A DNA stretch of 38,016 bases from positions 1-38,016 of the forward strand of contig NZ_JARHYI010000069.1 in the NCBI RefSeq assembly GCF_029258575.1. The letters run 5' to 3'. The first letter of the stretch is position 1, and each line of letters starts with the position of its first letter. A program made the position numbers and the translations under genes. Origin of the DNA: Brachyspira sp. (GTDB lineage Bacteria > Spirochaetota > Brachyspiria > Brachyspirales > Brachyspiraceae). Below are positions 16,395 to 31,219 of the stretch, in pieces. The notes below the pieces were generated by a model. That model was given only the letters and a program-made list of their open reading frames with translations. It did not search any database and was not told the DNA's origin.

Positions 16395-18467
16395 TTGTAT
16401 ACAGAAGATATATTTACAAAGAGTATAAAATATTTAAAGGGTGTAGGTTCAAAATATGCTGAAATACTTGCAAAAAAGAATATAATTACTTTATATGATT
16501 TAATAGCTTTTTTTCCAAGGGCATATGAAGATAGAAGAAAAACTTTAAAACTTCATGAGGCATTAGAAAACAAAGAGAAAACAAGTGTTGTTTATGTTGA
16601 AGTTATAGATATATCAAGCTTTACTTTTCAATATAAAAATAAGCCTTTAGTAATAGTTACTGATGGAGTTTCAATATGCGAAGTACCTATTTATGGAGGA
16701 AGACTTCCTGCTGGAGTTGCAAAAGGAGAAAAGCTATATTTAACAGGTAAATTTTTGAGAAGCGGTAGAGGTAAACTTCAATGCAGAATGACGGAATTTG
16801 AAAAACCTTCTTCTAATGCATTATCATATGGTAAAATTGTTCCTATATATCCTCTTACAGAAGGGCTTTCTCAAAAAAAATTAAGAACTTTAATTGTAAA
16901 TGAGCTTGTCAATTTTGAAAAGAATATGAAATATGATATTCCAAGTATCATTAAAAAAAAATATAGACTTAAAAGTTTTGTATCTTCAATTATGGAGATG
17001 CATTTTCCAACTTCTTTTGAGGCTCTTGATGAAGCTAGGGAAAGTTTAATTTTTGAAGAGTTTTTAACTTTTCAATATATACATTTAAGCGAGAGAAGAC
17101 CTAATATTTTAATAAAAGAAGAAAGATATAATTCTTCAAATTTATTAGAGAAGATAAAATCAAGTTTAACTTTTGAACTTACGGCTGATCAATTAAATAC
17201 AATAGAAGAAATAAAAAATGATCTATTTTCAAATAAGCAAATGTTTAGATTACTTCAGGGAGATGTTGGAGCAGGAAAGACTATCGTAGCATTTTTAACT
17301 TCTTTGATACCTGTAGAATCTGGTTTTCAAACTGCATTTTTAGCTCCCACTGAAATATTAGCATTGCAGCATTATAATACATTCAAAAAGATTATTAAGT
17401 CATCAGGTTTAGAAGATATTATAAAAATAGATATATTAACTTCATCTGTTAATCAAAATGAGAGAGGATATTTACTGAAAAGACTTAGAGAAGGAAAAAG
17501 TAATATATTGGTAGGTACTCATTCTATACTTTATGATGAAGTTGTATTTAAAAATCTTTCTTATGCAATAGTAGATGAACAGCAGAGATTCGGAGCGGCA
17601 CAGAGAAATAAATTACTTTCAAAAGGAACAAATGTTGATTATCTTCTGATGACAGCAACTCCAATTCCGCAGTCTTTAGCTTTAACATTATTTGGAGAGC
17701 TTGATTTATCAATAATAAAAAGTATGCCTAGCAGTCGAAAAGGTGTGCTTACAAAGTATAAAGAGCTTTATGAAAGAGATCATTGTTACAAATTCTTAAA
17801 AAGCAGAATAGCAAAAGGTGAGCAAGGATATGTCGTTTTTCCGCTAATAGAGAATAATGATTCCAGCTTTATTACTCTATCAAGTGAATTTCAAAGAGCA
17901 AAAGAAACTTACTTTTCAGATATTCAAATAGAAATTATACATGGTAAGATGAAAGATGAAGAAAAAGAATATATAATGAATAGATTTTCAAGAGGGGAGA
18001 TAAAGGTATTATTTTCAACTACAGTTATAGAAGTAGGAATAGACAATCCAAATGCTACTACAATATTAATAGAAGGTGCTGAGCGTTTCGGTTTATCTCA
18101 GCTTCATCAGTTAAGAGGTAGGGTAGGCAGAGGAGATAAATTAGGGTACTGTTATTTAATATTACATAGCGAGCTTAATGATATAATAAAAGAAAGAATT
18201 AACATAATATGTGAAACTACTGACGGATTTAAAATATCTGAAAAAGATTTGGAATTGAGGGGAGCAGGCGAGTTTTTAGGAGATAAGCAAAGCGGTATAC
18301 CTGATTTTAAACTTGGAAATATTATAAAAGATAAAGAGATAATGCGTAAAGCAAAAGATGAAATGCGTGATATACTAAAAGAAAATAAAGAAAGTTTCAT
18401 AAAAGAAAATAGTATTTTTATATTCAAAGCTAATTATTTAAAATCGAGAATAGTGAAAGATGAATAG
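16395..18467 (+). CDS. recG: ATP-dependent DNA helicase RecG
   Basis: The 690-residue product has the RecG layout. It starts with helix-hairpin-helix-like SIKYLKGVGSKYAEILAKKN and a wedge/OB domain to about residue 260. The SF2 helicase core follows: Walker A GDVGAGKTIVA near residue 291, a DEQQRFG box where DEQHRFG is usual, MTATPIPQSLALTLFGELDL, and motif VI QLRGRVGRGDKLGYC. The C-terminal TRG-type region follows (LELRGAGEFLGDKQSGIPDF). RecG remodels stalled replication forks and Holliday junctions. The start is TTG, chosen because aggaa lies about 8 bases upstream and no ATG fits. The H-to-Q change in the DEQH box is notable but not clearly damaging. Confidence 0.96.
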   Translation: MYTEDIFTKSIKYLKGVGSKYAEILAKKNIITLYDLIAFFPRAYEDRRKTLKLHEALENKEKTSVVYVEVIDISSFTFQYKNKPLVIVTDGVSICEVPIYGGRLPAGVAKGEKLYLTGKFLRSGRGKLQCRMTEFEKPSSNALSYGKIVPIYPLTEGLSQKKLRTLIVNELVNFEKNMKYDIPSIIKKKYRLKSFVSSIMEMHFPTSFEALDEARESLIFEEFLTFQYIHLSERRPNILIKEERYNSSNLLEKIKSSLTFELTADQLNTIEEIKNDLFSNKQMFRLLQGDVGAGKTIVAFLTSLIPVESGFQTAFLAPTEILALQHYNTFKKIIKSSGLEDIIKIDILTSSVNQNERGYLLKRLREGKSNILVGTHSILYDEVVFKNLSYAIVDEQQRFGAAQRNKLLSKGTNVDYLLMTATPIPQSLALTLFGELDLSIIKSMPSSRKGVLTKYKELYERDHCYKFLKSRIAKGEQGYVVFPLIENNDSSFITLSSEFQRAKETYFSDIQIEIIHGKMKDEEKEYIMNRFSRGEIKVLFSTTVIEVGIDNPNATTILIEGAERFGLSQLHQLRGRVGRGDKLGYCYLILHSELNDIIKERINIICETTDGFKISEKDLELRGAGEFLGDKQSGIPDFKLGNIIKDKEIMRKAKDEMRDILKENKESFIKENSIFIFKANYLKSRIVKDE

Positions 18468-18495: not shown

Positions 18496-18805
18496 CCCCT
18501 CCCTTTATTATTTTATAATATACTGTAAATTCTAATCTAATTTATTTTATTGTATTATTAGAAATTTTAGTACCCACCCAAGTTATGATTAAATTTTGAA
18601 TTTATTTAACGCACGGTGAACTGAATTTGATATATAATGAAAGTTATAATTGACAATAAAACTATATTTTTTATTTTGTTCTGCGTGCGGGAAAGTTCAT
18701 TTTAAATTTAAATAAATCTAGGGTGGGTGTTATATTTTTTATTTGAGTTTGAATGAAATTTTTTATTATTTTTTTACTTAAAATTAACAAGGAAATAGGG
18801 CGGGG
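18496..18805. repeat. Three-tier spaced inverted repeat of G/C blocks
   Basis: The 558-base interval 18468-19025 has no gene. Six short G/C-rich blocks stand out from AT-rich DNA and mirror each other. Outer pair: cccctccct (18496) against rc ccccgccct (right copy ends 18805). Middle pair: acccaccc (18572-18579) against gggtgggt (18721-18728). Inner pair: gcacgNNgaac (18611-18621) against rc gcacgNNgaac (18678-18688). Spacings are nearly equal on both sides (outer to middle 68 and 69 bases; middle to inner 31 and 32). The function is unknown. Confidence 0.65.
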
Positions 18806-18868
18806 AGTTAGAGTTAAATGCTCAATTAAATAATGATGCTTTTAACTTCAAATTTCATATGGCATAAA

Positions 18869-18901
18869 AAAAGAAGTTCCATTATGAATAGAACTTCTTT
18901 T
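18869..18901 (-). terminator. Terminator for phosphoglucomutase, bidirectional
   Basis: A perfect 11-bp stem (aaaagaagttc / gaacttctttt) with an 11-base loop. On the minus strand it is followed by a T-run, as expected for the gene ending at 19026. On the plus strand it could end transcripts from recG. Confidence 0.82.
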
Positions 18902-19025
18902 ATTATTGTTAATATTACTAATTATATATCAATTATGTTTTTAATTTGTTAAAGCAATAAATCATTAGCTAATACTTTAGTTGTAATCTATATTTAATCA
19001 GTTTCTCGCTAGTAGTATTAAGAAA

Positions 19026-20717
19026 TTATTCTTTAATAAATTTTTTGAAATTAGCTACTTTTTCTTTAGCAACAGCAAGTCTTTTATCTTTACTTTCTTT
19101 TACACAAACTTCAAAATAGAATTTGATTTTTGGTTCAGTACCAGAAGGTCTGATAGTAATTTTTGTCTTGTCTTCTAATATATATTGAAGTACATTAGAT
19201 TTAGGCAAAGTAATATCTTTTATTTTTTTACCGCTGTTATCATAAACTTCTTTTTTCTCATAATCACTTATAGTTTCTACTTTAACACCAGAAATATCTT
19301 TAGGTAAATTGTTTCTATAATAAGTCATCAAATCAGCTATAGCTTTGGCTCCGTCAGCACCTTTTTTGGTTATTGATACAGTTTCTTCATAGAAATAACC
19401 ATATTTTTCATAAATGCTTTCTAAGTAATCAGCCAATGTTATATTATTATCTTTACAATAAGCAAGTACTTCAGCTAGAATCAAACATGAACTAACGCCA
19501 TCTTTATCTCTTACATTTGAGTTTATACAATATCCAAAACTCTCTTCAAATCCAAATAAATAAGTTCCGTCCTTTTCTCTCTCTATAACATCAGCAATCC
19601 ATTTAAATCCAGTAAGAACATCATAAATTTTTACATTATTAGAATTAGCAATAACTCTTGCAAGTTCCGTAGTTACTATAGTTTTTACTATAAATGGATT
19701 TTGTATATTTTTTTTATTATTAATTAGATAGTATGATATTATAGATCCGATTTGATTACCAGTAAGATACATATAGCTTCCGTCTTTAGTAAGCAAAGCA
19801 CATCCCATTCTATCACAGTCAGGATCAGTACCCATAACAAGCTCAGCACCGATTTCTTTAGCTTTATCAACAGCTATTTGCAATGCTTCAGGATTTTCAG
19901 GGTTAGGGGAGTCAACGGTAGGGAAATTTCCATCAGGTGGTTGAGCACCTTCTAAAGTTGTTAAATTAGTAAATCCAGCCTTTTTTAAAGCCATAGGAAC
20001 CATTTTGTATCCAGAACCATGAATAGGAGTATAAACTATTTTTATATCATGATGTTTTTTAATGATATCAGGATTAACAAGATAAGACATTAAATCATTC
20101 ATGTATTTATCTTCAATATCTTTTCCTATAATAGTAACTTTTGAGGAATCTCCCATTTTTACTTCTTCGGGCTTAACTTTTAAAACTTCATCTATTATGT
20201 TTTTATCATGAGGCGGTACAACCTGAGCACCGTCAGTCCAGTAAACTTTATATCCATTATATTCTTTAGGATTATGGCTTGCAGTAACAACTATACCAGC
20301 AATACAGCCTAAATCTCTAACAGCATAAGAAAGTAGGGAAATAGGGTGAATATCATCATATAAATAAACTTTTATACCATTTGAAGAAAGTATCTCAGCA
20401 GCCGATTTAGAAAATACATCAGAATTATTTCTAGAATCATATCCTATAGCAACTTTATAATCACTTTTACCTTGTTTTAATATATAATTTGCAAGACCTT
20501 GAGTAGCAACACCTACAGTATATTTATTCATTCTGTTGGTACCTACTCCCATTATTCCTCTAAGTCCACCTGTACCAAATTCTAAATCTCTGTAAAATGC
20601 ATCTATTAATTCTTTTTCATTTCCTGCATCTAATAATGCTTTAATCTCTTTTTTTGTTTCTTCATCATAAGATCCATTAAGCCATGAATCAATTCTTGCT
20701 TTAACTTCTTGTTCCAT
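19026..20717 (-). CDS. Phosphoglucomutase / phosphomannomutase
   Basis: The 563-residue protein is a full-length alpha-D-phosphohexomutase of the PgcA type (longer than ManB types). The four signature loops are present in order: the phosphoserine loop VVTASHNPKEYNGYKVYW (about residues 141-158), the Mg2+ loop MGTDPDCDRMGCAL, the sugar-binding loop LFGFEESFGYC, and the phosphate-binding TIRPSGTEPKIKFYFE near the C-terminus. It interconverts glucose-1-P and glucose-6-P (or mannose phosphates), linking glycolysis to glycogen and glycan precursors. The branching enzyme at 28495 acts in related metabolism. It has a promoter at 20787-20815, an agaggtg ribosome site and a downstream terminator. Confidence 0.95.
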   Translation of the reverse strand: MEQEVKARIDSWLNGSYDEETKKEIKALLDAGNEKELIDAFYRDLEFGTGGLRGIMGVGTNRMNKYTVGVATQGLANYILKQGKSDYKVAIGYDSRNNSDVFSKSAAEILSSNGIKVYLYDDIHPISLLSYAVRDLGCIAGIVVTASHNPKEYNGYKVYWTDGAQVVPPHDKNIIDEVLKVKPEEVKMGDSSKVTIIGKDIEDKYMNDLMSYLVNPDIIKKHHDIKIVYTPIHGSGYKMVPMALKKAGFTNLTTLEGAQPPDGNFPTVDSPNPENPEALQIAVDKAKEIGAELVMGTDPDCDRMGCALLTKDGSYMYLTGNQIGSIISYYLINNKKNIQNPFIVKTIVTTELARVIANSNNVKIYDVLTGFKWIADVIEREKDGTYLFGFEESFGYCINSNVRDKDGVSSCLILAEVLAYCKDNNITLADYLESIYEKYGYFYEETVSITKKGADGAKAIADLMTYYRNNLPKDISGVKVETISDYEKKEVYDNSGKKIKDITLPKSNVLQYILEDKTKITIRPSGTEPKIKFYFEVCVKESKDKRLAVAKEKVANFKKFIKE

Positions 20718-30839: not shown

Positions 30840-30870
30840 AAAATCTATTTTTATAGATAAAATAGATTTT
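30840..30870 (-). terminator. AT-rich hairpin at the tmRNA 3' end
   Basis: A perfect 12-bp inverted repeat (aaaatctatttt / aaaatagatttt, 7-base loop) begins exactly at the tmRNA discriminator base. It probably ends transcription, and its 5' arm is trimmed away when the 3' end is matured. Confidence 0.6.
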
Positions 30871-31219
30871 GGAGATGGCGGGACTCGAACCCGCGTCCTA
30901 CGAAGCGTACCATATTCGTCTACATAGCATATCTTATCTTTAAAAGTTTCGCCTTATAGGTAGAAGACAAGCAGAAAAACTATAAGACTAGCATGAGTGT
31001 ACGTAATATTAGGCTCATACGGCACCTAATACAAGTTCTATGTGTTTTGGCACCGAAAAAGTAACCCATAGACAAATCACTTAATCAGCGGCAACTTCAA
31101 TCAAGCTGCGAGTGCATATTCATCTGCACTTATTCTTCGGTATGATATTAACGTGCATACACCTAGCACGACTATGCAAAATACGTTCCAACCATCGCAG
31201 TCGAAGCCGGAGCATCCCC
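30870..31219 (-). ncRNA. ssrA: tmRNA (trans-translation RNA)
   Basis: The minus strand shows both tRNA-like ends. The 5' end GGGGAUGCUCCGGCUUCGAC carries the family-typical CUUCGAC. The 3' end has a T arm GCGGGUUCGAGUCCCGC and the acceptor CAUCUCC plus discriminator A. The acceptor pairs with GGGGAUG over seven positions. CCA is not encoded. The tag frame reads from a resume codon GCA at 31127: Ala-Asp-Glu-Tyr-Ala-Leu-Ala-Ala, then UGA at 31103-31101. It is preceded by AAUAAGU, comparable with AAUAGUC in E. coli. tmRNA and SmpB free stalled ribosomes and tag the product for proteolysis. About 350 nt, of normal length. Confidence 0.95.

Follow-up and report, generated by a model that had tools for sequence, protein, structure and literature searches.

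The window, i.e., the whole stretch of DNA analysed here (38,016 nucleotides of a Brachyspira sp. contig), carries recG and a convergent phosphoglucomutase/phosphomannomutase gene, and the gap between the two holds short G/C-rich blocks in an inverted arrangement (Table 1). The original prediction had described three pairs of such blocks facing each other across a common axis, and a check of the window coordinates located all of them where they had been claimed. This copy is symmetric about a dyad at 18649.5, with block centres at distances of about 37, 74 and 150-152 bp from it. The window has only four CCCNCCC/GGGNGGG words, and they are the four C/G blocks of the recG gap; moreover, ACCCACCC was observed twice in the window as against 0.09 expected, and GCACGNNGAAC occurs there twice without mismatch, both times within the element. 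A separate inverted repeat, GAAGTTC...GAACTTC, with an A-rich left end and a T-rich right end, is located at 18864-18906; it probably serves as a terminator in both directions, for recG and for the phosphoglucomutase gene, and a strict terminator scan did not report it. The window also contains a tmRNA gene at 30867-31219 on the minus strand (RF00023, 134.6 bits).

Table 1. Features of the recG gap and its flanking genes, in window coordinates.
Feature	Position	Strand	Remark
recG, upstream neighbour	16395..18467	+	locus anchor for orthologues
Whole two-armed element, about 308 bp	18497..18804	.	between recG and the phosphoglucomutase gene
Left-arm outer C block CCCTCCC	18497..18503	+	outer arm site of the family
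Left-arm inner C block CCCACCC	18573..18579	+	
80-bp dyad core	18610..18689	-	directional, with its CGCACGCAGAAC side on the minus strand and its ACCGTGCGTT side facing left
Left core half-site CGCACG	18610..18615	+	
Right core half-site CGTGCG	18684..18689	+	
Right-arm inner G block GGGTGGG	18721..18727	+	
Right-arm outer G block GGGCGGG	18798..18804	+	
Phosphoglucomutase/phosphomannomutase gene, convergent neighbour	19026..20717	-	

When the genome of origin (G000) and its relatives were searched for the blocks at their spacing, a fixed-spacing family was recovered. In the genome itself, ACCCACCC-N15-40-CGCAC gave 19 matches and the core CGCAC-N68-96-GTGCG gave 35, as against 0 in either case for the reversed-pattern control, and a complete relative (G004) carries 117 cores. 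In a scan of the phylum, the core was present in 24 of 26 Brachyspira genomes, at 2 to 144 copies each and with no control matches, while counts in other genera resembled the reversed-pattern control. Arms were found in 23 of the 26 and in none of three genomes from sister genera; one Brachyspira genome (G019) has two core matches without arms. A longer pattern applied to the GTDB collection returned Brachyspira exclusively among the matches listed, namely B. hampsonii, B. alvinipulli, B. innocens, B. pilosicoli and MAGs. The element was not found in viral contigs by pattern search, or in plasmids and phages by blastn, and an origin in any of these was therefore rejected. The element, with as many as about 140 copies in one genome, is thus confined to Brachyspira, as the suggestion of a Brachyspira-specific intergenic repeat family had anticipated. 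Since copy number ranges from 0 to 144 across the genus, the element cannot be essential in it.

The family follows a common plan, in which a dyad core, CGCACG-N66-71-CGTGCG (78-83 bp, mode 80), is joined on one or both sides by an arm, CGTGCG-N30/31-GGGNGGG-N70/71-GGGNGGG. By the strict pattern, 327 unique cores, a sample chosen partly through arm patterns, comprised 105 two-armed, 203 one-armed and 19 armless forms; looking outward from the cores yielded these arms again. The two sides of the core read differently (CGCACGCAGAR on one, RYTNACCGTGCGTTRA on the other), which makes the core directional. Distances between blocks hold to within about 1 bp across the family, at other copies as well as in the window, whereas the filler is soft. 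The matching distances that had been noted in the window thus stand, and the statement that the filler is not conserved needs amendment, since a weak AT consensus can be recognised in it and its length varies by no more than about 1 bp either way. Measured from the core centre over 400 kb of G004, block centres lie at 73-74 and 150-153 bp, and further ones near 194 and 272 bp represent a neighbouring arm facing the first. Close core-to-core distances are mostly 343-351 bp, a two-armed period of ~345 bp, and one-armed series in other species have a period of 229-235 bp (~233 bp), the difference of about 112 bp being one arm. Beside one element (locus L005, G000:C40), a parS-like sequence, TGTTTCACATGAAACA, was observed on the reverse strand, ~80 bp to the left of the core.

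Conservation was examined at the recG locus itself, the orthologous loci in 26 species being located via RecG and not via the blocks. An orthologous element lies 3' of recG in 14 of the 26, although in eight of these it sits about 1.1 kb further downstream, past an inserted gene, and one orthologue (L113) has lost its right arm. In the one inserted gene tested (L106, 2567-3460), the product is Abi_2 (PF07751); an insertion in the same place was also observed at L105, L107, L108, L111, L112 and L114, and a conserved inverted repeat, GGACCCCCAGCA...CATGGGGGACATTTTTTATTT, which may be a leader or terminator hairpin, is found just upstream of the Abi_2 insertion. In the 13 two-armed orthologues, 35 of 36 block bases are invariant, with a pairwise difference of 0.004, as compared to 0.247 for the filler, 0.345 for filler positions that are mostly G/C, and 0.535 for the middle N of the blocks. 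The blocks are thus conserved in the species that have the element after recG. Because they remain invariant in place though the genome drives G/C to A/T, these alignments offer strong evidence that the blocks are functional, and that the element is under selection in place through six short G/C blocks held at fixed spacing.

Several observations bear on the form in which the element would act. One possibility is a structured RNA, terminator or cruciform, in which a strand folds into a three-stem hairpin; indeed, the window copy folds as a single strand better than its shuffles (z = -3.45), but this good fold is given by the inverted blocks themselves. In the core columns of the 327 cores, 4333 Watson-Crick pairs were counted against 4409 expected, i.e., there is no compensatory covariation, and the "large structured element" of the original prediction, if taken in the hairpin sense, could not be upheld. 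The arm filler within one element is no more alike than in shuffled pairs, and one core position has at most a weak left-right association (p 0.07). The facing middle bases of the arm blocks are usually mismatched, the majority of cores are one-armed, the direction of the core relative to transcription is random (17:17), and no Rfam family matched at the element; a hairpin or RNA is, on the whole, very improbable. A protein-coding reading, raised by the 'WVG..' translations of the arms, was also rejected, as stops are about as dense as in shuffled sequence and spacers differ in length by single bases. It is to be noted that the middle bases of facing blocks, read on the G strand, are one T and one C in 82 of 103 two-armed elements and both C in 2, and that the middle letters of the two blocks within one arm tend to agree. 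Two arm types, or an avoidance of pairing, were considered and set aside, since the filler GC skew runs in the same direction (rho 0.38, p 4e-4, for its correlation with middle-base direction); the pattern is more probably due to strand-asymmetric mutation acting on a free position, although replichore alone fails to predict it. Stiff spacing, soft filler and independent halves together lead one to expect a dyad-symmetric protein assembly on double-stranded DNA. The notion of protein-binding sites at fixed spacing therefore appears well supported, the stiff spacing, the conservation in place and the independence of the halves all pointing to it.

Descent could also account for such a layout, if the copies were relics of an old non-autonomous transposon (MITE) of which the inverted ends survive, the pattern then reflecting ancestry and not function. 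The inverted-repeat layout, the dispersal of copies, their widely ranging number, including absence, and the one-armed forms all agree with this, as does one distant pair in G004 that is 78% alike without shared flanks. That pair is, however, the best of its kind, higher identities belonging to recent local duplications with shared flanks, so that the near-identical, recently dispersed copies of a MITE are not seen. Neutral decay in an AT-rich genome would, moreover, strike the G/C blocks first, and yet these are invariant in 13 species; the element is also absent from phages, plasmids and viral contigs. The RAYT (Y1) transposase, PF01797, was found in 0 of 26 Brachyspira genomes, the controls being positive, and a REP/RAYT reading was rejected on this ground. 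With distant copies old, the element conserved in place and no RAYT gene, the non-autonomous mobile element that had been offered as an option finds no support as a description of the present state, and we regard even the relic as improbable. The main rival is instead a BIME-like supercoiling site, in which intergenic DNA, mostly at gene 3' ends or between convergent pairs, would hold gyrase or another nucleoid protein and so relieve or insulate supercoils driven by transcription. In a 400-kb tract, each of the 41 cores is intergenic; 11 of the 22 long convergent gaps there carry an element, convergent gaps being over-represented, and overall such gaps hold 37 of 101 cores. The tens of bp between sites would suit wrapped DNA. 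The sequence preference of gyrase is loose, which is unlike the strict blocks of the element. Divergent gaps hold 20 of the 101 cores by automatic gene calls, and an exclusion from such gaps, hinted at by that 400-kb tract, failed elsewhere; furthermore, convergent pairs occur all round the chromosome and the element does not. Although E. coli REPs are gyrase targets at ORF 3' ends (PMC3733652), we consider a supercoiling role for the present element unlikely.

The chromosomal distribution was followed on two complete chromosomes, and in both, copies crowd at the skew-defined origin and are missing or sparse at the terminus. In G004 the GC skew becomes positive near 1.3-1.4 Mb and negative again near 0; G007 has its minus-to-plus switch near 0/3.04 Mb, which is where its copies crowd. 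The origin-proximal half holds 80% of the clusters in G007 and, among the matches listed, 93% in G004. Also among the matches listed, a 1.04-Mb arc of G004 (2.76 to 0.61 Mb) is without match, longer than any empty arc obtained when 68 clusters were placed at random 5000 times; the G004 positions are 100 of the 117 cores plus nine arm matches beyond them, and the right-hand boundary of the arc is less certain. Among gaps of at least 300 bp, an element is present in 0 of 17 on the ter side and in 27 of 94 within the dense tract (p 0.011). The empty region of G004 is also compact, and the surroundings of dnaA in Brachyspira are highly conserved and syntenic (PMC2897892). Since the empty region is the most compact and syntenic, the distribution may reflect genome plasticity rather than function. 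In both chromosomes dnaA is found on the terminus side, a long way from the GC-skew origin; the skew switch, and not dnaA, was taken as the origin, in agreement with the published placement (PMC3163572). Where replication starts in Brachyspira is debated, dnaA not lying at the skew switch (PMC3163572), and the origin-biased distribution is relevant to this question.

Taking these results together, we lean toward the view that the copy in the recG gap belongs to a dispersed family, established long ago, which acts as double-stranded DNA and would assemble a dyad-symmetric protein complex; the element looks like the docking site of a putative chromosome-binding complex. One or more sequence-specific proteins would bind at the CGTGCG half-sites and at the GGGNGGG sites of the arms, and the AT-rich DNA between the sites would be bent by a complex whose axis is the core. 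Neighbouring elements may be joined at the ~345 bp (two-armed) or ~233 bp (one-armed) period. The direction of the core, which such a complex does not as yet explain, counts against it. Because the copies crowd at the skew-defined origin and are missing or sparse at the terminus, the complex might act, much as Noc or SlmA sites do, in the organisation or segregation of the chromosome or in the timing of division. Among the partition, termination and nucleoid sites that had been proposed, it is accordingly the partition or nucleoid role that this distribution would tentatively favour. That about a hundred 310-bp multi-site elements near the origin constitute a chromosome-organising system, setting nucleoid architecture, segregation or division timing, is a doubtful but conceivable extension.

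The identity of the putative binder was approached through known protein families. A search for full-length HU/IHF (PF00216) was positive in 9 of 14 control genomes but in none of 26 Brachyspira genomes, where only weak partial matches, lying within long open frames, were obtained; such a lack is unusual for a bacterium. As full-length HU was found in none of the 26, which leaves no contrast, the HU/IHF paralogue count is uninformative and was discarded as an explanation. Every species has a single full-length ParB, whether it carries the element or not, and a Noc-type ParB paralogue was rejected for this reason. In a genus where full-length HU/IHF was not found, the binder of the suggested system could, tentatively, be a lineage-specific protein. 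Large intergenic elements under strong selection in place, at up to ~140 copies, would point to a major DNA-binding protein in Brachyspira, intestinal spirochetes on whose chromosome biology there has been hardly any work, and the element is a ready bait for finding this protein.

Comparison with known systems places the element beside several classes. MITEs (e.g., NEMIS/Correia, ERIC) are dispersed non-coding intergenic inverted repeats, a layout that the Brachyspira element shares, although it is conserved in its spaced blocks only, old at each site and selected in place. Phage attP-type intasome sites likewise have core and arm sites at fixed spacing around AT-rich, bendable DNA, but the present element has tens to more than 100 chromosomal copies, no evidence of recombination, and no representative in phage collections. 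The Noc sites (NBS) and SlmA sites (SBS) are single short palindromes, and Noc is a ParB paralogue, in contrast to a multi-site element of 310 bp in genomes with one ParB each. The likeness to these sites lies in many dispersed palindromic copies depleted from terminus regions (PMC4726725), a trait seen in the two complete Brachyspira chromosomes, where it is confounded by the compactness of the depleted region. REPs and BIMEs are also many, intergenic and dyad-symmetric, single or arrayed, and often at gene 3' ends (PMC3733652), and the intergenic placement and the 345-bp and 233-bp arrays of the element are similar in kind. The REP unit, however, is a hairpin palindrome of 20-40 bp, in many cases with a RAYT transposase, whereas the Brachyspira element consists of six spaced blocks over about 310 bp, with no hairpin covariation and no Y1 transposase in the genus. 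The open-access Brachyspira genome papers searched contained no description of such a repeat. Interspersed intergenic dyad repeats are a known kind; the six-block, non-hairpin design, conserved in place, is new.
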